Shown piece by piece: positions 6,326 to 35,527 of a DNA stretch of 37,559 nt (position 1 is its first letter; every line of letters begins with the position of its first letter). This DNA comes from Saccoglossus kowalevskii (lineage: Eukaryota > Hemichordata > Enteropneusta > Harrimaniidae), in contig NW_003112966.1 of NCBI RefSeq assembly GCF_000003605.2, positions 136,047 to 173,605 on the forward strand, in the 5' to 3' direction. The translations under genes and the position numbers were made by a program. The notes beneath the pieces were generated by a model. It had not been told where the DNA came from. It did not search any database and worked only from the letters and a program-made list of their open reading frames with translations.

Positions 6326-7778
6326 CACACTAAGACTCCTATTGGAAACAGGAGTCAAAAACACTTGTATTTTTTGTTTTTATATTTGAGGTAAATTACC
6401 AAAACACAAGTTAGTATTCATGCTTTAATTCATAAATAAATCACTGTGTTACACCCATACAAAAGCTAAAAAATAACTACAATATTATGTTAGATCACAA
6501 TATTATGAACATTACAGTATGTAGCTTGTTTCAGCCAGTTATTGAAGTCTGACATGACAAGCATAGTAAGTATACACATATAGAAAAACTAGTTTATTTA
6601 CTCCTGTATTGCTGCCAAGGCCAAAAACTGCTTACTTTGTAAATTATAAACATTGCACTAAACAGGATGTTCAAATCATACATTATAAACTATTTTATAA
6701 ATTAGCCAGATTTCTGTGTAAATGCAAGTATGAAATTTATTTTATTTTAAATATTAATGATACCAAAAATAAATCATCTGGGAAAGTTCTATTTCAAAAA
6801 ATGTCTCTAATAAGCATAGCATTTACACTATTATTTACACATTTAAATCTAGACCTTCCTGAATAGTTAAAACTCAATTCAGCATAACTATTAAAAATGT
6901 TATAAAATGATTTCCGCATACCAGCATATTTTGCTGGCTTGAACTTTGACTTGTTAGCCATCACTGCATCTCACCTCCCACCTATCTGACAATAACATTG
7001 GTGTATAGCACAAGTCAGCATAGACACATAAAGCTTTGCAAAAACACCAAATGAGACATTTGTATGGTTAATGTTGCTATTCTGATATTATACAATTGAT
7101 AATGTTTGTCATATTTAAAAAAAATACATTGCCTTGAAATACTTGAATTATTGCAGGCTGCAAGGCGTTAACATACAGTTTGAATACTATTAATAGTAGC
7201 TGTATGATTAAAAACAAACTTGACATTTATAATTGAATAAATCACAATAGCGAAAGCAGTTTTGACTGATCAACTGTATAAAAGCGATTGTTGCAACAGA
7301 CTCAACAGGCAGGTCCGAAACTCAAATTACAGGAGATATACGACCTATGTACATTTTTGTACTTGTATAAGTATGCCACAGACTCGATGGGGGACCAATA
7401 CCACTGGCCAGGAGTCAAGCTATAACAGATACGACTTTGGAAGAACCTTGGTTAAGGATCATGTGGGCAGAAAGATAGTCACATAGTTACATAGTCCCAG
7501 TAGTCACAATATTGTGTATGATGCAATATAAACTATCGGTAAAATGTACCATCATTACTAGCCCTTGCAATTGTCAGGCACAAAATTAAATTTAAAAAAC
7601 AGTTTCATTTAGAGATTGCATTGCCTGTGAATTGGATGATGAAAGAAGTACGCAGCAGAGTGATTTGAAAGTTGTCAGCGTCAATTCTTTTAACCATTGA
7701 GTCTCCAACCCATAAGCAGATTTTAAAAAGCTAGCTGTGACCTTTGACCTAAGGTCAAGACACTGATTAAAACAGATT
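6326..7778. other. Gene-free stretch downstream of gene A
   Basis: AT-rich sequence after the right end of the long-TIR element, up to the stop codon of gene A, which reads leftward. Its right part is presumably the 3' UTR of gene A. The 85-codon plus-strand frame at 6609-6866 is low-complexity, Lys/Phe/Ile-rich and antisense to the expected transcript, so I do not call it. Confidence 0.5.
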
Positions 7779-10700
7779 TCAAACGTCAATATCGATATCA
7801 ATTTCATCATGATGTACAATAATCAACACGACTGAAATAATCAGTATTGCTAATCCAATAACAAACGCCGTCCAGGAGAGGAAGCGAGCTGAAGATGATG
7901 CTTGCCATGCTCCATCAAGATCACCACGTGACGAGGAGCGGTAAACCTGATAAAACAAGAAAATACAACATAATTAAATGTACATATATATTTTGTTCAC
8001 AACTAATGGTTTGTTGTCTAATATTGTTCAAAAATTGGTGACACATTAAAACATCTTCTAATTAAGCGAACTACCGTAGTCCCTACAATTCAAACATAAC
8101 CCTCTCAAAAAAACAGCAATGCTCACACAACAAGGAATTTTATTTTTATTTCTTAACTTTCTCAGTTGCTTTCGGTGATGGATACATGTAGAATAAAAAT
8201 ATTGATTCTAAATTGTAGCTCATAAAATTTCACCAAAGTTTGGTGTTCAGTACACACTATGAGAATTTTCCAAAGCTCCCTCAATCCGACAATCTTGTGC
8301 AGGTTTTATGTCAATAACTTGTCAAGGGGATCCACGTGTGGCAATATTAACAAGTATATGCATCACATAAGTAGTCCCTGTGAGTTCTCAAGATTGAGAA
8401 ATATATAAAATTTGAACATGAACAGTCAGAGATATGGCTCCAAAACTGAATTCACTAAAACAAAATTGCCACCAGTCAGCCATTTTGAGTCCGATCTGAC
8501 AAATAACGCGAGATCATGCATTAAGGTCTCCATGTAAATATCAAGTTCGAACAAAACCTGCCTATGCATTACTGAGATCCAGAATTGAAAGAATGTTTGA
8601 TTTTGATGGTTTTTTAATATTAAAATAACAGAAATTCAGCCACCTTGAATTAGATAACTGAATGAATAAATATTCATAAGTATGACATATATAAGGCATA
8701 CATGTATCAGAGATATGACTCATTAAAACAAAATGGCCACCAATAGGACAATTTGAATTCAATCTATCAAATCAAAATGATGTGCATCAAAAGCCCAATA
8801 ATGTCCAATATATGTACCAAGTTTTAATGAAATCTATACATGACTGAAATATTTAAACATGAACGACTCCAAAACCGCATTCACTAAAACAAAAATGGCC
8901 ACATATGGCCATTTTGAATCAAATTATGAAACCAAAGAACGTGCATACTTCATGTTGCATGATATGTTTTTTTAAGTTTGAATGTAGATGCACAAAATCA
9001 CAGACGCACACATAGAAGTAAATAAGTGGTCGAATGACTTGGCATGCATGCATGTTCGGTTTTACTTATTACTAATATGGAGAAAAACATGCAACTACTG
9101 AACATAGCTTGATTCTGAGTTGTGTGATTTGCTTTGCATGAATTTTGCTTATATGGCTGGGTGGCACACTTTGTGAAATTTAATCTGAGCTTGTGCAATT
9201 TTTCTGTACATGTATAACGAATCAGTGACTTTGTCAGTGCTGCACTGTGTTGCATTCAAATATGTTTCATAATTTTAGTGTTTTTACAGGAAATTTGATT
9301 ATAACTACTGAAATTAGTCTAAAATCAGGTTATGTGTTCTGATAAAAGTTTGTAATATTGCGACATGTGTGTGATAAATCCAGATAAAAACAAACCCGGT
9401 TGCTTTTATCAAGGGGTCTCCCATACAACAATGCTCAATTGAGCTTTACTTTAGACATCAATCAATCATCTAATCACACTGCTGCATGACTAATTTGAAA
9501 TTTAGCCGAATTGGCAGGTATTTTATGTTTGTAATGTTTTAAAATTTATATTATTTTCACAAGTATCTTCTTGTATTGAAATCAATTATTTCAACTCAAA
9601 ATTGCATGTGCTGGTTGTACATCTACCTACATTTCTAGCAACCCCAATATTGAACTTAGTTGATATTTCATAGTGAATGATGATATTTTTACATTTCAAG
9701 ATGATCAGAAAAATGTTTTTGAATTACAGAAAAAAGACAACAACAGCAACAACAGAATTATTTAATCTACAATGAACAAGGTAAAGAGTAACATCTTTGA
9801 TAGTTTGTGGTACAGTGAAGTGAGTTTTGTCCAGAGTCACTGATGAAAACCGTTGCTACACAAAGAATGTTTATGAAAAGTAAGGTACCAAAAATGACAA
9901 GGGAGGTGGCGAGTGCCAGCAAGGTACCATAAATGCTGTTAGAGGTGGAGAGTGCCAGCAAGATTCCTTAAATGACCTGGCAAGTGGTGAGTGCCAGCTA
10001 AGTACTGTAAATGTAAACAGATTTATTATACGACTGAAGTATGACTTCTGATGAACGAACAGACACAAAATTATACCGGGTAAATCCCCGTTTTTGAACT
10101 TCATTCAAACATGGACTAAATATTGCACTTTGAATATGGATGTACCCTTTAGTAAAGTGAACATGTGTAAATGCCCATATTCAGCCAGTAATATGTACAA
10201 GTCATCACATTATAGCAGGACCAACAAATTAAAACATCTTTTATTTTGAGATGATGGAGATTAATCATATGATACACATGTGATAACAAATCAGTCAAAA
10301 TAAATGTGTCAACTTAAATTGCAGTTTGCAACAAAAGGGAGCTGTGTTTTATCAGAGTTTGTTCGTAGTTTTTAGTCTAACTAATTGTGTAGAACTAAAT
10401 GAATACACAAAAACATGAATTTTGTCATATAATTTTAACAAATATGATGATTCAATTTTGGCTAAAATAGAGAAGTACATCAAAGAGCACTTAGACATCA
10501 CCTGACTCAGTCAATGAGATCACCTGGCTCAGTGGGAGGTCAACAGATTCAGTGAAGTCATTGATGCTAGCTACAAAATAAATAACCAGTCTACTCACTT
10601 CTCTAGATTTCCAGAGAGCGAATATTCCAATAGGCCAAAAACACAAGACTGTTGAAATTACGGCTAATATAAAATAATCACTGGGTATTCTCCACGCTGG

Positions 10701-12040
10701 AACAGGGCTGCCATATGTGTATCTTGTAGGTTCATCTCTCACCTATAAACAACAATATGGTAAATATGGTCCTTACATTTAAAAAATACAATGGAATCAA
10801 AATGACTACATAGATATATTGTACGACACTTGGTTTCAGATATTTCTGCTTTCATGAGTGTTTCTTTAAGCTTTAAATCACACAGAAATAACTGATGAAT
10901 GTAAAATTGAGAACCAAAAATGCATCAATGAGTGTCACATGATAGTAGATAAAATAATCGCAGCTATCACCAGACAAAACAGTTTATGATGATACAGTGT
11001 ATGCTGTGTGTGGTAACAGAGTATGAGAATAGATGCGAAACACACTAATAGAACAAAAGCAGAATCAAGACTTGGTTGTGGAAATTTGTTTTAAATAATA
11101 TTTTTTGTTTGTTTACTTAGCAGTCACATGACATTGAATTAGATCAAAAATTACCCAGAATTTTAGGAAGTGTGAAACAAGAGCTTTAATAAAATATATA
11201 GTTTACTATAGTTCAGGACAATTCTTATATGAAAATATCAAGCCTAATTATAACATCCCTGTTAGGTCTACTACAACCTTAAAGGGCAGTGGTCATCACA
11301 CCTTGTTCCATATGGGTCCCATAGCGAAGTATACGATGCATCTTTAAANNNNNNNNNNNNNNNNNNNNNNNNNNNNNNNNNNNNNNNNNNNNNNNNNNNN
11401 NNNNNNNNNNNNNNNNNNNNNNNNNNNNNNNNNNNNNNNNNNNNNNNNNNNNNNNNNNNNNNNNNNNNNNNNNNNNNNNNNNNNNNNNNNNNNNNNNNNN
11501 NNNNNNNNNNNNNNNNNNNNNNNNNNNNNNNNNNNNNNNNNNNNNNNNNNNNNNNNNNNNNNNNNNNNNNNNNNNNNNNNNNNNNNNNNNNNNNNNNNNN
11601 NNNNNNNNNNNNNNNNNNNNNNNNNNNNNNNNNNNNNNNNNNNNNNNNNNNCAAGGCCGTGATAGGAAGAACGAGGTTGTAGTGACCTTGTAGTGCACAT
11701 TGGTGAGGCAAGGGAGTGTATACATTTTTTATACATTATTTAAATTATAAATTCAAACGGCAGTTTATCTTTGTACGAATGCGTAGAGACTTCGAATGTT
11801 CTAATTTCTGTCCAATGATTTGTGAGCGTTGGAGAAAAATTACCCAAATTAGTTTCCAGCTTACAAACGGGAGGTCCCTGATCAAGGGATTTCGAGTACA
11901 GATTAGAGCAGAGTTCTACACAGTTGCACGCTGCAATCGTCAGCATACAAATTCTCGTCCACCAGTGTCACTAGCGGACATTCCTGTACAATCAAATGTT
12001 TATACCAGATGTTCTACATACCTTGGCCCACATATGCCAT
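7779..12040 (-). CDS. Gene A: dispanin / CD225-domain (IFITM-like) membrane protein, one exon missing
   Basis: Recognised exons in transcript order: 12040-12022 (ATG, six codons encoding MAYVGQ plus one base, donor GTATGT), 10742-10599 (48 codons, phase 0 at both ends, donor GTGAGT) and 7946-7779 (54 residues of the tail plus one more, then TGA). The 10742 exon carries the first CD225 segment, with SDYF, CFWPIGIFA and KSRE. The last exon has the conserved Gly-Asp (SSSRGD), an Ala/Ser-rich stretch ending in AR, and a second membrane helix of about 22 residues, then an acidic His/Asp tail. Exon 1 ends in phase 1 but the CD225 exon starts in phase 0, so an exon of length 2 mod 3 must lie between 10743 and 12021; the N gap at 11349-11651 is the obvious place. 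The ATG has a strong context (A at -3, G at +4). Family role: small double-pass or hairpin proteins of plasma and endosomal membranes. Family call is firm; exon 1 is inferred by analogy with gene B. Confidence 0.8.
8412..8990. repeat. Three diverged copies of a dispersed repeat in gene A's last intron
   Basis: Similar blocks start near 8412, 8698 and 8858. Each has AACATGAAC or CATGTATCAGAG, then ATTCACTAAAACAAAA, then TGGCCACCA and CCATTTTGAAT-type sequence. A related piece (CAAGTTTGAATGAAATC) lies at about 5060. The copies are strongly diverged and none is coding. Origin as a transposon-derived satellite is inferred. Confidence 0.65.
9875..10016. repeat. Minisatellite, about 3 units of ~40 bp
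   Basis: Units contain GAGTGCCAGC at about 9910, 9949 and 9989, each preceded by a GTGG-like core and followed by a TACC/TTCCT block and AAATG. It lies in the last intron of gene A. The open minus-strand frames across it come from the repeat and not from a gene. Confidence 0.75.
11349..11651. other. Assembly gap (303 N)
   Basis: An unbroken run of N. It falls between exon 1 and the CD225 exon of gene A and most likely hides that gene's second exon. The N count may not be the true gap length. Confidence 0.99.
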
Positions 12041-14032: not shown

Positions 14033-16265
14033 ATGTCAGATAAAGGTATAGGTAAGAATTGCGAGGTTTCGTTGAACCCGGAACATCAAAGCATAAAAAA
14101 CTACTCTACAGCCATCGTGGCGGTCCCCCACAAATGGAGGCTGACTTAACTATGAGCTTCGGTTTCTAAATCTCGATCCATAAACAGATCCGAGTCGTAC
14201 ACGGCTAACACAACCGCAACGAGTCAGTGAGCATTGGACGACCGACCACATTGTAGTTTATTGCGGTTTATAATATCTCGGAGAAAGGTCAAATATGGTA
14301 TTTCAAAATGGAACGCACTCAACCGCCGTGCTTACTGGCAGCACCTTTATCTACGTTTGTGATATTTTCTGATACACGGTAGTCGCGACAGAGATTTTTT
14401 TTTTTAGATCTTGTCTTGGAGTAGCTTCGATCAGTGAAGATGTACGTTTAATAAGCCCCTTTTTTTAAAGTTGTCGAATCATGATTGCATGTTGTGTCTA
14501 CCTCGTGATTATGACGCATCCCATAAATCAAAGATATGGATTGGGCAATCAATAAATTACATGACATATACATCTCAGCATGTAACACCCATAGATTACA
14601 ACCAATGACAACTGACATATGACGTGCTAACTTTTCACAGCCTTACTGTACTTTGCTCTGCCCGATTGAAATATCGTTTTAAATGCATAAAAATGTAATC
14701 TGTTGGTAAATTGTCACGGCGACAAACACGTGACCCGTCCACATGTGTTTCTGGAATGCATCATTGAGTACTCGTGAACTAATGCCTTTATTCCTCAAGA
14801 TGGTCAACATATAGACGCAATCGCAAGAACATATGTACGTCAATATTATATAGTAATGGGTGGGGTGTCGCCTTTAATAGGACGCGCCCATAGATGTCAC
14901 GTTGTCCGATTATTACAATCTTACACAAACTGATCTGAGTACGATTGTATGATCTTGTCTAACTTCAACGGCGCGTCACGGAGACAGCGAATTTAAAAGC
15001 ATGCTCACTCTCCGTAGATGTGTTGAGCACGGATGATGTATATTTCCTTCCCCGTTCAGAATACGCTACTCAATTCAAGTAAGACCATACGGCTTATTTG
15101 AACAGTCAGCACGCACCGCTGACACTTTAGTAGCCGTATTCGAGGTGTCACCATTACGGATTATTGATCCATATTTCTGTTTCTATTCATTAGTTTCGCC
15201 CGAGCTTCCAGATGCTCCGCCCGCCTACACAACGATCGCTGGCTACACGGATACACAACCCGATGACACTGAGCCGTACGCGACGCAGTTAACGCTACCG
15301 TACAGGTGTACTTCAAATGGGTATTCGAATCAAGTGTGTACTGGCTTCGCTCGCTATTCTAATCACTTCGACCATCAGGCATATATAGTAAGTACATGTT
15401 TGCATTGGGTGTACACTATACCGAGTTTGACGCACTGCATGTGTGCCACATCGCCGTGTCTAAGAAGCGTACTTATTTGATGTGAAGTTGTCTACAGTCA
15501 CCCCCATTCAATATAATTGAATCGACATAATTGATGAAATTAAGAATTCAACTTTGATATCGATGATTACGACCTTCTCTCATGATTTCTGTCTGTTGTA
15601 TATATTCTCAGGTTTCCGGACCTCAATTCCAACACACTGTCATTATACGCAGTCCGGAGCCGCTTAGAAACCCTCCACCGGATTACCTATGCTCGTCTAT
15701 CCTGACAACTATTTTCTGCTTCTGGCCAGTGGGAATATTTGCCGTTATGAAGTCTTTTGAGGTAGTATGAATACTATAATGTTATTGGTGTGTATGGTCA
15801 CGTGATTTCACTGACCTCGCTATCACAACTCATCACAATCATAGGATGGACGTGATACGATGTAAACTAAAGTGAATGTACGTCACTGCGTGCAAGAGCA
15901 AAGCAACGTGACTAGCCCTTACAACCAAGATACTTATCGTGTTCACATCTATGTTTTGTGTCCATTTACGCCGACGTAAATAGGGTTAAAAATTAGCGGC
16001 GTTTAAACCACCTCAACACGTTAACTAGGTGTTTATCTCATTCTAACAAACAAACAAACAAACACATAACAAACAAAATAAAATTAATAGTCTACGTAAT
16101 TTATCATTTTAGACCAGGAGAAGCTCGACAAGAGGCGACGAAAACATTGCATATTCAGCGTCACGATCTGCGAGGATATTGAACTGGATAGCTCTGAGTA
16201 TTGGCGTGGCGTTGGCCAGCGCTACGATAATCACACTGGCTATCTTAACCCTCACAGCGCAATGA
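14033..16265 (+). CDS. Gene B: dispanin / CD225 protein with IFITM3-like PPxY-YxxPhi motif
   Basis: Four exons: 14033-14051 (ATG, six codons encoding MSDKGI, plus one base; donor GTAAGA), 15194-15387 (donor GTAAGT), 15612-15761 (donor GTAGTA) and 16113-16265 (TGA). Phases are 1, 0, 0 and the product is 171 residues. PPAYTTI is at residues 15-21, followed by a Tyr/Thr/Asp-rich soluble region to about 90. CD225 begins at PPPDY (92-96), then a first hydrophobic segment (97-116) with Cys98 and Cys107 as possible palmitoylation sites and CFWPVG, then KSFE. The last exon has Arg/Ser-rich sequence, Gly129-Asp130, the SASRSAR signature and a second helix (about 143-168) ending three residues before the stop. 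Exons 2-4 are secure; exon 1 is inferred from phase and from the identical 19-nt length of gene A's first exon. Head-to-head with gene A. The exact role is unknown; endosomal or plasma membrane location is expected. Confidence 0.86.
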
Positions 16266-24348: not shown

Positions 24349-25239
24349 TTATATGACGTGCTGTAACTGATGTCCCAAATTTAAAGCTGGGCGGCACTGC
24401 GTTGTATTTCCCTGATACAATAAATGTGATGGTAACATGTGGCCGGTATGGTTAACAGCAAGAATGACGGTGATTTTTCGTTTATCGTCGAGGTCTGTGA
24501 TCTGATCTTGTTTGCTGCCCCGGAACTCCATTGTCCAGTTACCCGATGCATGGATGGACTATCGCAACACCAGTCTGATCCCAGTTGAAGATCAACTCGT
24601 CCGTGATGAGACACTCACTGTTCGATTTTACGCAAATATTCCTCCTTGACTTGTTTGTTTACATGCCTTGGTTCTTCGTCTTTCTGTGTAGCCTATCCTC
24701 TTTATGATGAGTGATTCGGCCCAAGATTAATAAGGACCTGTCTTTGTTCAAAACAAGTGCACGTGGTGCCATAGTCACGATCGAAGTATTGACAATACCA
24801 CAACTGATACGCAGAGACTTTATAAATGACTAGATTTTGATGTCACGCTGGTTACCACGGAGTAAAGGACGACCACGTTGTTTTTTCTCTATAATTTCTG
24901 GTGGGTCACGATCTTGCTTCACGTGCTGGATGTAGGCTTTCTTCATAGTCCGAACTGTACTCTCGTTAATGGGATTTTCAAGCAGCCTACTGAAATGCCT
25001 GGCGGCTTTCATTACACCATTTTCGGACGCGTGTCTTCCTATCTTTGCTCGAATCCTGGGGCTATAATGCTGGTAGGTACCTCGCTTACATTTTCTTGAG
25101 GCACTGTCAGTCTTGATTAGAACAACGTCTACGTCGTCATTAATCTCATAGACTAATGCTGGATCAATTGCTGGGACCATTGATGGCGACGGTAAACCGG
25201 CCGGTGCACTGGTATCAGATGGCTTTGATTTCTTCAGGT
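24349..25239 (-). pseudogene. Broken pogo/Tigger-like (DDE_1) transposase
   Basis: The N-terminal part (25239-24830) is a clean frame with a Pro/Ser/Asp leader, then KRGTYQHYSPR, a helix-turn-helix-type region (HASENGVMKAARHFSR, INESTVR) and a basic RGRPLLRGNQRD segment, ending at TAG. Downstream the reading shifts frame. A stretch with ELIFNWDQTG, the first catalytic Asp context of the DDE_1 family, lies near 24595-24565 with stops before and after. Another frame (24531-24349) carries DLDDKRKITVILAV and LPSHLLYQG, the block that follows it in this family. At least two stops and two frameshifts, and the later catalytic region is absent. Dead element; no terminal repeats located. The helix-turn-helix half is well preserved. 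Confidence 0.8.
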
Positions 25240-25262
25240 AATAATAATAATAATAATAATAT
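25239..25262. repeat. (AAT)n microsatellite
   Basis: About eight AAT/ATA triplets at the junction between the transposase fragment and the retroposon-like block to its right. On the minus strand it reads (ATT)n after GGCTAATAAAAT, a common 3' tail form for LINE/SINE elements. Confidence 0.9.
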
Positions 25263-25604
25263 TTTATTAGCCTTTGGAGCGGCAAACAAAGAGAAGAAAA
25301 CAACCAAATCATACATATTTGAAAAAGGAAAGAAGAAAAATCACATTAAATTCAAACTTTCTTTTCTATACTTATACAATTGAGTAATAAATACTCTAAC
25401 TTCCTTGGATACAATATTCCCCAAATTATTGTTGACTTTCCACAATATGTCGCTAAAAAGTACATTAAACTTAAAATTAATTCCTCCAGAAAGAAAGTTA
25501 TTAATAAGTGTTGGGTCTACTTCAAGGTTTTGAACTTTGTACATGAAATCTATCGGACGATAGACATTTTAGCACAGTCCCTCAACACCTGTTGAGGGAC
25601 TGTG
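25263..25604 (-). mobile_element. Possible retroposon 3' end
   Basis: Read on the minus strand, the block runs from a 15-bp-arm hairpin (25604-25573), through an open frame ending in a stop at about 25341 (the segment near its C-terminus reads FITQLYKYRKESLNLM), then a T/C-rich tract and GGCTAATAAAAT, to (ATT)n. This order resembles the 3' end of a CR1/L2-type LINE or a SINE built on one. The protein piece is too short for a firm family call. Confidence 0.35.
25573..25604. repeat. CACAGTCCCT hairpin, copy 2
   Basis: CACAGTCCCTCAACA, CC, TGTTGAGGGACTGTG is a perfect 15-bp stem with a 2-nt centre. It shares its outer stem with the hairpin at 17196-17222. Confidence 0.85.
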
Positions 25605-27381: not shown

Positions 27382-27642
27382 CTACTTCAGTAATTGAAGT
27401 CGTCTTGTCTTGGTCATTGCCCATGCATCTGAAGCAGCCTTGAAGTCAAACTTCTCAATTGGTGGTCCTTCTACACTTATGAATAATAAACATCTTAATA
27501 TTTTTTCAGAAAGTCTATTTCTCAGATTGGTCTTGATTCTTGATACAGCTGAGAACCCTCGTTCACAATCTACAGATGAAAAGAGTTCAGATTTTACATG
27601 TAGAAATGGAGTTTGAAACAAATAAACTTGATATAAATACAT
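27382..27642 (-). pseudogene. hAT transposase C-terminal fragment (dimerisation domain)
   Basis: The minus-strand frame contains SSVDCERGFSAVSRIKTNLR, then LRCLLFISVEGPP, then a short basic tail and stop. The CERGFS motif followed by a Leu-rich helix is the hAT-family dimerisation domain, close to the ZNF862-like/TTF-type group. Only this tail is seen; the zinc finger and catalytic regions are not in the adjoining sequence. It lies 25 bp beyond the last donor found for gene D, on the same strand. In-frame joining to that donor fails, because the split codon becomes TGA. Most likely a transposon fragment in or beyond gene D's next intron. Confidence 0.75.
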
Positions 27643-27667
27643 AACTCTGATGATATAATGTACTTAC

Positions 27668-30990: not shown

Positions 30991-33900
30991 ATGCCGGTTT
31001 TTAATAAACGTCCAAAAAACCGCGGTCGACCCTGGCTCCCGACACGTTATAATTACGGTAAGTATGTCGCTTTCTCTAGTATGTCGGGGAAAGTATTGTT
31101 TCGATTATTTGAAAATGTATGCTTGAATCTTCCGTTCAGTAAATTAATTCACTTTTGTCAGAGTGAACACATGTGCGAGTAAATCCGCGATTCAGGGTAT
31201 ATTGTTGTCATGGTGTGGAAATAATGTCCATTTTTGTTATTCTTAATTGATTTGCCAAAATGAAGCGTAACGTCGATAACAATCATTACAGGCCATTTTC
31301 CTATTGTGATTCACGTGATTACGTATTCGATGGATCTATTACGAACACTCGAGCACGATGATTAAAGTAATTGTAATTAAGTGTTTAATTTCAATCTTTA
31401 TTCGGATAGATCTCAATTATCATCACTTTATAATTGTTTGCTTGAATTAATTGATATTCCCAGTAATAATTGTGAGTAGGTATATATAAACCATCACATG
31501 TCTACCAGCAAATCGCGATGACAGGCTTCCGTTTTAACAGTGTGACCCTGAGAATAATATTCTGGGGGCAATCGTATCTGACGGTACCCATGACACCATG
31601 TGCGTATATACTGAAACTCACCGCTCAGAACCATCCCCCGAATAAGTCGGTTTTCAATCGATATCTTGTTCTTTTCGCCAGCGTTTCGTCAAATAGCAGG
31701 TTCATAACGATGTAAACGTGTATGTATAATTAAATACCGTTGAATATTAGTGAGGGGTATTATAATTCATCTCGGAGCACGTTGTCATATATTTTGACCT
31801 GTTTTGACCTGACTAATATTTCATCTCCTGTTTTAAATGATACCTCGGCTTAGGCTTACTTTGTTCACGCCTACGCTGGTAACATGTGCAGCACGAACAT
31901 GAACATTAATGTGAATGCAAAAATAGAAACTATGTATCTGTGTGAAGAAATGCAACAAAGTGGGCGACTTGTTCACGTTCACACTTCCGATTTAAAATAT
32001 CACCAGTGATCCATAAAATGTGAATATATTTACATAAACATGTTGCCGCTGTCACTTTATTGCAACTCGCACGCCATCATATTTTCAATATGTATTATTC
32101 ATTTAAGCACTTCTAACACCTGACACGTATCGACAAAAGCGTCACCCATTTGTCGACATTGACTTTGTAGATTAAACACGAAACATTATGACACCGAAAT
32201 GGTCAAAGCAACTCCGTTTCCGGATCAATAATTTCGCTGCGCGTGAAATGAAAACATGTAGTTGTTGTAAATAAATGAATTGTCTCCTTTGTTTGACTTT
32301 AACTTCACTATTGCCCTGTATTTTGAGATGACGTGGTGCCATGTTACGATCTAGTTGTTTTATTCGGTGCAGTGTGATATTAAAGGAAACAGCTGGTCTC
32401 AACTGAATGTATGTGATCGTGTCATCTACCACATGAGTTGCTTTCTTTCCTTCATTCCATTCTTGGTCATGTCGTACATTGTACCGGCCGTGCATTGATT
32501 TTAGTAACTCTGCATGTGGTCGTCTACGGTCTCTATATCTGCAAATGTACCATGGAGGTTCAATATATTACGATACCGCCGCAGTTATTTGTTTCGTATG
32601 AGGTTAGAGTACTGAACAGTCGTTCATTCTAGCTCATACAACTAATAGAACTATTAGTTATATGAGATATTATCAAACCGTCATTTTTTGGGCCATGTGA
32701 TAGTTTTGTTTTGTGTTAGATGAACCTTAGCTTGGAATACACATGAATAATAACCGTGAATTCAGTCACCCGGAAATGTGTTCACCCGCAATCAAATATT
32801 CACATTTCACCTAACAGTTCGTATTAATATCTTATGCATTTACCGTTGTTTAGTCTTTATAGTGACGATGTCCGAAATCCGAGACCTGCATATAAGTCAA
32901 TATCCCATGGCATAGCGTATACCTCAGCTTATTTTTTGACTGGCTGATAGTTTATGGTATTAAAGCGTACATGGAAACCGGTGGGACTTGTGCAAACATG
33001 TCTGGACTGATCCTTGCAATAATCGCGTGACAAACATCGATTGGTATTTCACTTTTTTTTTCTCTCTCAATTGATACGTAGCGTTACCCATGTCTTTTAT
33101 CAATTTTCAGTGATTTAATAATATAATTATATTTTAATAATAATCCTAATTTTTGACTGACGCGCCACTGTCCTGTAAAACAACAAATACACCTTGCCTA
33201 TAAATCACGCCATTTATCGACGAAGCGTTTGTGTGACATTGTTTTTATATGTAGCGAGTCGTACATCATTTTGACGTCACCGAAAGGTGATTTAATGGTG
33301 CTAGGAATCCTATATTGTTTGATAAAGACACTACAATGTATTTCATTACACCACACTATACGCACAGTCCGCTGGCGCACATGTGATAGTAAAAGAAATA
33401 CGATATTTACTATATGGGGGCCGCCATCTTGAATGCAGCATAAAACTAAATAAGAGACAAGTTGTGAAACGTGTTTTTCAGATTTCCTACAAATCTGGAC
33501 AAAAATACCAATTTTTGTCAAAAATACGATCCGGTGGGGTTATATTAAGCCAACCGATAACAAAATTCAGCCGAATTCGGCGTTTTTGTGTGGAAAAATC
33601 CCTTGCATACAAACACCTAATTATACCAAGAACCTAGAACACTTTCCCGGGTGGGGATCGCAGCAGTCCAGGGCGCCACCTACGCCAACTTGTCAGGCTA
33701 GTGACTATACGTATACACTATCGTCAACAAATACGTCATCTTAGTTGTCAATATTAATTTTGTTGGGGTTGGTTGTCATAATAATGGTTTTTGTTTTGTC
33801 TTTTTTATTAGATTATAATCGTTTCGACGACTCTGTCCAGGAAGAGGCCCCACCCTCCCCCGGATTACTTCGCACGGAAAGCGATGGAGCACAAAGTGTG

Positions 33901-35527
33901 AATACTGATCACGATGTCAAACGCGTTAGAATTGACTCTACAACCGAGGCTGATACGGAATACACTGACTCGGCCAATGAGAAACTTTTACCACAAAAAG
34001 GAGCGAAGAAAGGCAACCAGAGCGTCGCAAAAAAACAACGTCGAGATCCGAGACAGTTACGACGACCGCCACCACAAGAACACGATGGACCCCCCGCATT
34101 GCAGGAGGTCTACAGTGCGTTCGGAAAGTCGGTGACGAGCAGAAACTACGCTGTGGTAAGTCGACCGATGTTTTTTTCCGCTAGTTTTAATTGGGTTTAT
34201 TTTCTGAAATTAGTGGACGTGTCGTGCTGTTAGATGAGTTATTCGTGACCTGTAAGTTGTGCTGTTAGAACATCTATTGTCGATTTCCCCATCCGCATGA
34301 GTGTACTTAATTTGTCGCTGCGTGTTATGTTCGACATGGGTCCTATGCGATGTATTCAACGCAAGTAAAATACACTGTTCTAACGCTCGCTGTAGGACGA
34401 ATATTGCCCTTCCAAATGATAAACATACAGCACGTATTCTTGATAAGAGACCATCCTACTAAGATGTATGGTGACTTGTATTACGCAGTCAAAACTCGTA
34501 ACGTTTCATATACGATTCCTATACGTTTACAGGTAACGGTGAGCCCACCATCAAGTCCAACTGTCAAGACTCTGCCTTACCCTCGCCCCACCATACCATT
34601 GGAAGACCCACCGCCTGATTACCTGTGTTGTTCCATATTCTCGTGTTTCTTCTTCTGTTGGATTATAGGCTTGTTCGCAATACATCAGTCCTGGCTTGTA
34701 AGTATAATATTGAAATATTAAATAATAATAAAAAAATATTAGAATTACTCAAGTGTGGCATGTGAATGAACGCATAGCGTTAATTGGGGATTTTCCGTTC
34801 ACCTCGGGATCTGGCATATTGCGTGAATAGCGCGGACTGAACGATTTGATTTTGAATTTATATTTTTTTATAGCTCAATGACGTAATGGCGATCCTTCGG
34901 AGAGGAATATTGCATTGAGATACCCTTACTTCATCGAAATTAATCATCATCAAATGTGAATAGAAATACCCAAATATATTTTCGCGTTTGACAAACCCCA
35001 CGCGATATTCTGAAGCCACTACGATGCTATGACCTTTATTTGTCCTAGAGTTCGTCTGATTTAACGCATAACGCGGGATCTCGCAGTGAAAGGAAAATGG
35101 TTAATTGATGAGGGAGACAATGTTGAATCCATAAGTTTGTTTCTTGTGTTTGATCAGACCAAGTGGCAAACGATATTGAATGGCGCGGAGTACTAATAAT
35201 ATTTTATTCCCCGAAACTAATGAATGTGAGTTTCTTTTATTGAGCCCTGTGCAATCCAGAAATGATAATAATGTATTTAAAGACATAATGAATTGAATTC
35301 ACGCCCTAAGTGGTTTCATCCGGTGAATGTGAAACATTACAATCACGTTACAATTGTTCTATGTTTGATTTCAGTCTCGACAAGCAGCCAAGGCGGGTGA
35401 TAGGATGGTGGCTGAAGAGAGTGGTCGATACGCCTTGCAACTTACATGGGCTGGTATATTTCTTGGCGTCATTTTAGCAATACTCTTCGTGGTCGTGTTT
35501 GTGACGCCCCATTTTGCTAAAACTTGA
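30991..35527 (+). CDS. Gene C: dispanin / CD225 protein with long charged N-terminus and Cys cluster
   Basis: Four exons: 30991-31057 (ATG, 22 codons plus 1 base, donor GTAAGT), 33812-34155 (donor GTAAGT), 34533-34697 (donor GTAAGT) and 35375-35527 (TGA). Phases are 1, 0, 0, as in gene B, and the product is 242 residues. Residues 1-22 are basic (KRPKNRGRPW). Residues 23-137 are polar and probably disordered, acidic first (DSVQEEAPPSP) and then basic (KKQRRDPRQLRRPPPQ). CD225 starts at PPPDY (163-167), with a first hydrophobic segment holding four Cys at 169, 170, 175 and 179, likely palmitoylation sites. The last exon has Gly200-Asp201 and a second helix at about 217-235, then a short tail. 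Exon 2 has no ATG of its own, and its upstream in-frame extension is intron. First intron 2754 bp. Compared with IFITMs (about 130 residues) the N-terminus is about 100 residues longer. Function unknown. Confidence 0.88.
33668..33703. repeat. Second copy of GGGCGCC / TCAGGCTA repeat end
   Basis: It matches the right arm of the inverted element at 28959-29047 over about 35 bp. It lies in the first intron of gene C, about 110 bp before exon 2. Confidence 0.6.

Follow-up and report, generated by a model that had tools for sequence, protein, structure and literature searches.

Many viruses are blocked from endosomes by IFITM3, a protein whose level and location hinge on one tyrosine that is common to a ubiquitin-ligase site and an endocytosis signal. 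This tyrosine lies ∼37 residues from the first hydrophobic segment, and IFITM1 is without the N-terminal extension of IFITM3. In the IFITM3 protein the motif 17-PPNY-20 overlaps a YxxPhi signal, with the tyrosine common to both (PMC4532365), and the whole motif reads PPNYEML at residues 17–23 (PMC13344045); the overlap is described for IFITM2 as well. The layout given for IFITM3 in the initial annotation of the locus described here agrees with this. Through its PPxY motif, which is called highly conserved, IFITM3 is bound by the WW domains of a ligase of the NEDD4 family (PMC4532365), and the YxxPhi signal of vertebrate IFITMs is likewise called highly conserved (PMC4488726); PMC3499546 describes the N-terminal region of these vertebrate proteins as hypervariable, and the lysines of IFITM3 are K24, K83, K88 and K104 (PMC13344045). 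Published accounts give IFITM genes two exons (PMC3282796; PMC3499546) and their proteins a length of 102–157 aa (PMC3499546, PMC3424830); bat IFITM isoforms use alternative first exons with distinct YxxPhi signals (PMC11801718), and exon number varies among human and mouse IFITM10 transcripts (PMC3424830).

Two other systems are comparable. SynDIG4/PRRT1 has a YxxPhi signal, 178-YVPV-181, that is proven to bind mu2 (PMC11798926); it lies far from the start codon, and the part of that paper available to us reports no overlap with PPxY. LAPTM4a and LAPTM4b, from an unrelated family, carry PY motifs in the C-terminal tail that share their tyrosine with putative tyrosine-based sorting motifs, and LAPTM4 is a lysosomal membrane protein sorted with Nedd4 (PMC3214061). 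Hence, the overlap design is not unique to IFITM3. Invertebrate dispanins are closer to subfamilies C and D than to A and B, and genes of subfamily C and DSPD1 are said to have one more exon at the N-terminus (PMC3282796). In the open-licence literature, supplements aside and as far as its partial texts go, we found no report of PPxY or PPxYxxPhi in an invertebrate dispanin.

The DNA analysed here is a 37,559-nt stretch of the Saccoglossus kowalevskii genome (the window), with no Rfam match and no tRNA. It holds a candidate gene, gene B, with the following predicted features:

14033..14051, + strand: gene B coding exon 1, from the ATG, MSDKGI plus one base, with a phase-1 donor (AG/GTAAGA)
15194..15387, + strand: gene B exon 2 (phase 1 in, phase 0 out), which encodes the cytosolic N-terminal tail
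15217..15237, + strand: PPAYTTI, composed of PPxY (15217–15228) and YxxPhi (YTTI, 15226–15237), with the tyrosine common to both
15612..15761, + strand: gene B exon 3, first half of CD225, with the juxtamembrane stretch and the first of two hydrophobic segments
16113..16265, + strand: gene B exon 4, which encodes the intracellular loop (RRSSTRGD) and the second of the hydrophobic segments and ends in the stop codon TGA

This four-exon model gives a 171-aa protein with splice phases 1/1, 0/0 and 0/0. An in-frame TGA is read in the sequence two codons upstream of the start codon, and exon 1 is the best by donor score of 60 ATG-to-phase-1-donor candidates between 11700 and 15120, the splice scores being rough throughout. 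Exon 2 has borders that match the consensus (cattag/ and /gtaagt) and a GC content of 0.515, compared with 0.413 and 0.379 in the flanking introns, and shows no GC bias by codon position (0.52, 0.52 and 0.53). A second in-frame acceptor at 15212 scores 4.0 versus 1.7 for 15194; it would give a 165-aa protein that starts MSDKGIDAPPAYTTI, with the motif at residues 9–15, so that the residue numbering of the motif depends on the acceptor. Exon 2 also has an alternative donor after 15333, and the weak sites of the model are the donor at 15761 (top 11% of GT sites) and the acceptor at 16113 (top 17% of AG sites). That exon 2 joins the CD225 exons, as the initial annotation had supposed, is very probable, because the splice phases fit and paralogs have the same architecture; for exons 1 and 2 together, the strongest evidence is that paralogs show the same layout with a tiny Met exon.

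Gene B is a member of the CD225/dispanin family, in agreement with its first description. The spliced protein matches the Pfam CD225 domain with 74.6 bits against a cut-off of 27.1 (E 6.7e-21), over residues 92–155 and profile positions 1–64 of 68. Its hydrophobic segments are at 96–119 and 143–171, and the exon border after residue 121 falls in the loop between them; such a border is typical of eukaryotic dispanins and is described as missing only in an S. mansoni gene and mouse Dspa2f (PMC3282796). Among dispanin criteria the same paper gives G-D and A-x6-A in the loop and an acidic residue ahead of the first transmembrane segment (TM1), and by eye gene B has RGD and A-YSASRS-A in the loop and PPPDYL before TM1. 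A double cysteine in the first helix (C-C, or C-F-C in DSPB) is conserved, not defining, according to PMC3282796; unlike IFITM3, gene B lacks it, reading FCFW, and its only cysteines there are C98 and C107. The double cysteine is present in 8 of 13 aligned genes of this genome and missing from gene B, its paralogs A and C in the window, and the genes C1343 and C2465 elsewhere.

By its predicted structure, gene B is PRRT1/SynDIG-like rather than IFITM-like. Comparison with the PDB gave PRRT1 (9zks_M, E 1.1e-15) as the only CD225 protein among the matches listed, the two other rows (E 0.68 and 2.2) both being unrelated, and NCBIfam gave a sub-threshold CCC_membrane match alone (E 0.13). Like PRRT1/SynDIG4 and SynDIG1 (subfamilies D and C), gene B has additional N-terminal coding sequence ahead of the TM1 exon, in two exons (1 and 2) compared with the one described. 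It falls outside the description of the IFITM subfamily (DSPA), with four exons instead of two, the motif in an exon apart from TM1, and a length of 171 aa (165 aa with the 15212 acceptor) that exceeds the DSPA range.

PPAYTTI is found at residues 15–21 with the 15194 acceptor, in the phase-1 frame of exon 2, and its tyrosine belongs to both motifs, just as had been noticed at the outset; gene B thus has in common with human IFITM3 (subfamily A) both the CD225 domain and PPxY and YxxPhi on one N-terminal tyrosine. YTTI is the only YxxPhi in the protein. Shuffling of the 92-aa tail produced PPxYxxPhi in 1.6% and PPxY in 9% of shuffles, and shuffling of the first 30 residues produced them in 0.6% and 4.6%, respectively. 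Six-frame translation of the window contains 11 PPxY and two PPxYxxPhi, the other being PPTYLTI at +6974 in a 34-aa frame of no known gene. Taken alone, PPAYTTI is uncommon, not extreme, and only mildly surprising; what makes the PPxY half convincing is the comparison with paralogs. The tyrosine lies 78 residues ahead of the first hydrophobic segment, and the disorder value around the motif (residues 13–24) is a weak 0.09 on a rough scale, hence the accessibility of the motif is not assured.

Within the window, the paralogs A and C have the following predicted exons:

7779..7946, − strand: gene A TM2 exon (Pfam CD225)
10599..10742, − strand: gene A TM1 exon (Pfam CD225), with 303 N in the region upstream
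33812..34155, + strand: gene C exon 2, phase 1 in and phase 0 out as in gene B, reading EEAPPSPGLL
34533..34697, + strand: gene C TM1 exon (CD225), with PPPDYL before TM1
35375..35527, + strand: gene C TM2 exon, stop TGA

For gene A, upstream of which there is an assembly gap, a strict scan for an N-terminal exon was empty and a relaxed scan gave 11 weak candidates, none of them with PPxY. Exon 2 of gene C has no PPxY, with APPSPGLL in its place, and has YNRF and YSAF elsewhere. Its first exon was sought among 122 candidates, the best of which (MPVFNKRPKNRGRPWLPTRYNY, score 6.3) was not adopted. The tails of B and C are not alignable (P 0.29).

To extend the comparison, matches to the CD225 exons were collected from the window's own 572-Mb genome assembly. 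There are at least 20 such matches, including at least 15 TM1 exons on 11 contigs, with A, B and C among them. For the 12 other TM1 exons we took ∼10 kb upstream (∼6 kb for one at a contig end), and downstream stretches for nine of the 12. An N-terminal exon with phase 1 in and 0 out was resolved in nine of the 15 genes: B, C, C291, C3324, C5, C1343, C2798a, C994a and C994b. The others are A, C1950 and C2798b, which have assembly gaps, and C3500, C2465 and C4080, which have no convincing exon. In six paralogs, counting the near duplicates C994a and C994b, exon 2 is preceded by a tiny Met exon that ends in a phase-1 donor, like MSDKGI of gene B. It was the top candidate in C291 (MSEK), C1343 (MASTNE) and C3324 (MS); in C5, the sole candidate, MTEKQ, lies 4.3 kb upstream, and its region contains 3651 N; in C994a and C994b, MSGI ranked only fifth of 10 and fifth of 13 by score, and is near exon 2 and common to both. 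Further PPxY matches in C4080 (PPLYDFE), C1950 (PPSYILV), C994a (PPLYAPL) and C291 (PPYYGTI) were not taken as exons because of poor splice context, short frames or lack of a phase 1-to-0 exon.

PPxY recurs among the dispanins of this genome, and its overlap with YxxPhi is not enriched. Counting B, exon 2 contains PPxY in six of the nine resolved genes: PPAYTTI in B, PPPYNGY in C291, PPPYVVF in C3324, PPAYTCT in C5, PPAYDPG in C1343, and two, PPPYPAT and PPNYGQS, in C2798a. Tail shuffling (C994b dropped) predicts 0.51 such genes among eight compared with the six observed, P about 5e-8. This value is optimistic, given that PPxY is what drew notice to the C5 exon and that exon 1 is missing from the tails used for C and C2798a. 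In this test, the exon 1–2 junction residue was omitted for C994a and C994b, and C1343 was given the third-ranked start at 9239, the first-ranked start being earlier in the same frame. A motif-blind scan by splice phase and score ranked the PPxY candidate first or second in B, C2798a, C291, C3324 and C1343 (in B and C1343 the first-ranked version has borders other than those used). On the sense strands of the 15 regions there were 37 exon-like clusters, five with PPxY and one each in five genes, compared with 24 clusters on the antisense decoy strands, where the single PPxY was gene B itself within the region of gene A; the exon of C5, which has a weak acceptor, is below the thresholds of this cluster count.

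The other half of the motif behaves differently. A Phi residue at Y+3 occurs in two of seven PPxY motifs versus 1.18 expected (P 0.33), and the whole PPxYxxPhi is present in two of nine resolved genes, B and C3324, so that most resolved paralogs, unlike IFITM3, are without the overlap. C994a and C994b show the converse, a YxxPhi (QQPYLIF) without PPxY. Conservation of the motif in relatives, which the initial annotation had proposed as its test, is thus seen within this genome for the PPxY half and not for the complete unit. Since PPxY is recurrent and Phi is at chance level, the recurrent feature is the N-terminal PY motif, and YTTI is gene-specific. This suggests that the ubiquitin-ligase half of the putative tag is a family trait and the endocytosis half a gene-specific addition; the exons are otherwise not alignable, and thus the PY motif itself may, but need not, go back to a single ancestral motif.

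A CD225 tree of 13 of the 15 genes and two of 11 bacterial sequences (L001 and L003; 85 columns) was weakly resolved, with two of 12 inner branches starred. In this tree B groups with A and C291 at support 85/87, short of the 95/80 mark; within the group, a tail that can be compared with that of B is available for C291 alone. Its start, MSEKENLVPPPYNGY, aligns without gaps to that of B from the 15212 acceptor, with 6 of 15 residues identical. PPxY is retained in C291, and the residue opposite the Ile of B is Tyr, hence no YxxPhi. Loss of the motif in close relatives had been named as a refuting result, and in C291 it applies to the YxxPhi half alone. The second gene with the overlap, C3324, has a tail that reads MSEEKEKNGMPPPYVVF, with PPPYVVF near the start, an exon layout as in B and a tail exon of 56 nt. 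Its CD225 domain is 38% identical to that of B, the same value as for the bacterial L001 (38%), and the tree, weakly resolved as it is, places it apart from B. Because C3324 does not group with B, there may have been two origins of the overlap, or many losses.

Taken together, the reading that we favour, with fair rather than high confidence, is that gene B is a dispanin with a recurrent PY tail that acts as a NEDD4-type ligand, that its YTTI is gene-specific, and that its likeness to IFITM3 is either a coincidence or the same overlay formed anew on a common PY motif. From the sequence comparison, the N-terminal PY motif of B is probably a WW-domain ligand of the NEDD4 family. PPAY would most likely recruit a HECT ubiquitin ligase of the NEDD4 family by way of its WW domains, and the recruited ligase would then ubiquitinate B or a partner, steering B through endosomes. 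Lysines are scarce in the protein, the tail having K4 and the loop K118 and no others being present, and K4 lies before the motif, whereas the tail lysine of IFITM3, K24, follows it; with so few lysines a ubiquitination site in cis is not assured, and K4, K118 or a partner may be the substrate. YTTI may bind the mu2 subunit of AP-2, like the YxxPhi signals of IFITM3 and SynDIG4, in which case it would compete with WW binding for the common tyrosine; it is perhaps a real AP-2 signal and perhaps chance. A widespread PY half and a sporadic AP-2 half in a non-vertebrate genome suggest a testable order of events, and the dispanin paralogs are natural variants for testing the role of each half.

Alternatively, B, and perhaps C3324, could carry a true IFITM3-type switch, acquired independently of IFITM3, in which AP-2-driven endocytosis and NEDD4-driven ubiquitination are mutually exclusive and controlled by phosphorylation. 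The overlapping layout near the N-terminus in both paralogs, the position of YTTI as sole YxxPhi in B, the common tyrosine of IFITM3 and the service of a YxxPhi to mu2 in SynDIG4/PRRT1 are consistent with this. However, the frequency of Phi at Y+3 over the seven motifs is that of chance, C291 has Tyr at the Phi position, and the tyrosine of B is farther from the first hydrophobic segment than that of IFITM3. The switch is hence possible but unproven, and we regard it as doubtful; the recurrent N-terminal PY motif is the better-supported result. Slightly more tentative again is the idea that animal dispanins have long had an N-terminal PY motif, to which Phi at Y+3 was added more than once, in B, C3324 and vertebrate IFITM3. 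If so, the NEDD4-type ubiquitin handle would be older than the AP-2 signal, and each gain of Phi would make an endocytosis/ubiquitination switch; C291, C5, C1343 and C2798a with PPxY only, and C994a and C994b with YxxPhi only, would then be natural single-function controls.

PPAYTTI is unlikely to be a string that a tail rich in proline and tyrosine contains by chance, without a binding partner. The shuffle frequency of 1.6%, the second PPxYxxPhi at +6974, and the PPxY-free exon 2 of C, C994a and C994b would all fit such a string, but six of nine genes with PPxY against the 0.5 of eight expected do not. Bacterial dispanins provide a further null for such tails. Among bacterial genome contigs, 11 dispanins were found in 74 pattern matches, and PPxY was present in none of their tails (839 residues) nor anywhere else in these 11 proteins. 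To our knowledge, bacteria have no NEDD4 or AP-2. The absence from all 11 tails indicates that PPxY is not a mere by-product of tails of this kind, and it gives no sign of deep ancestry. Among viral contigs, none of 56 pattern matches was confirmed with the CD225 alignment, and none of 27 with exon 2.

We consider it very unlikely that exon 2 is outside the main product, which would then start from a transcript beginning in intron 2 and, like IFITM1, lack the PY tail. The open frame 15567–15770 does hold an in-frame ATG ahead of exon 3, reading MISVCCIYSQVSGPQ, but this ATG is within a pyrimidine-rich tract leading up to a good acceptor (among the top 3% of AG sites), the phases of exons 1–3 fit, and the six paralogs with their similar exon 1–exon 2 layout argue for the longer product. 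Least probable of all is that IFITM3 and gene B both inherited the complete PPxYxxPhi unit from an ancestor that they share, the ancestry that the initial annotation had offered beside convergence: the distance from the start codon is similar (15, or 9 with the 15212 acceptor, versus 17), both vertebrate motifs are called highly conserved and the two-exon rule is not absolute, but the motif of B has an exon of its own, preceded by a tiny Met exon, in a PRRT1/SynDIG-like structure, which makes inheritance of the whole switch unlikely, and the unit is missing from seven of nine resolved genes, the tails of B and C cannot be aligned, and invertebrate dispanins are nearer to subfamilies C and D.

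Gene B, read here as a dispanin with an N-terminal PY ligand, has a second PPxY directly before TM1:

15675..15686, + strand: PPDY, residues 93–96 of gene B

We rejected this site as a WW ligand because the pattern P-x-[DN]-Y-L is found at the same place in bacterial dispanins, before TM1 in six of the 11 loci (L001, L002, L003, L006, L007 and L011). PPDY of gene B is thus probably a structural part of this pattern.

Because two dispanin paralogs of the same assembly, C5 and C291, both fit the PPxYxxPhi pattern (a PPxY and a YxxPhi signal with one tyrosine in common) immediately before the first hydrophobic segment, with APPNYLPL in the C5 pre-TM1 stretch (L039) and PPDYLYF in the C291 TM1 exon (L036), we suggest that structural reasons can produce such matches at this position. 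Within the window, a second PPxYxxPhi string, PPTYLTI at 6974 (+), lies in a 34-aa frame that corresponds to no known gene, and we take it as a chance example of the pattern.

In paralogs C994a and C994b (L035 and L042), the exon equivalent to exon 2 of gene B carries YxxPhi (QQPYLIF) without PPxY. The TM1 exon of C3500 (L040/L050) closely matches that of C994a. A scan around this exon, covering ∼10 kb on the upstream side and 8 kb on the downstream side, gave no convincing candidate for either exon 2 or the TM2 exon; C3500 is perhaps a truncated copy. For gene A, a 303-base run of N (window ∼11349–11651) lies upstream of the TM1 exon, and the N-terminal exon may be within this gap.

One further CD225 exon is encoded on the opposite strand from paralog C3324, and therefore probably represents a sixteenth dispanin of this genome; no TM1 partner for it is present among the CD225 exon matches listed for the assembly:

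C3324:686161–686301, +, TM2-type CD225 exon (L029)

The window also contains putative transposon-like ORFs, the first two of which presumably resemble parts of a DDE transposase:

24349–24614, −, ORF piece, DDE transposase-like

24830–25345, −, ORF piece, DDE transposase-like; a Pfam scan gave only one match, sub-threshold and unrelated

27382–27663, −, ORF, weak match to the hAT dimerisation domain (Pfam E 0.018, under the cut-off)
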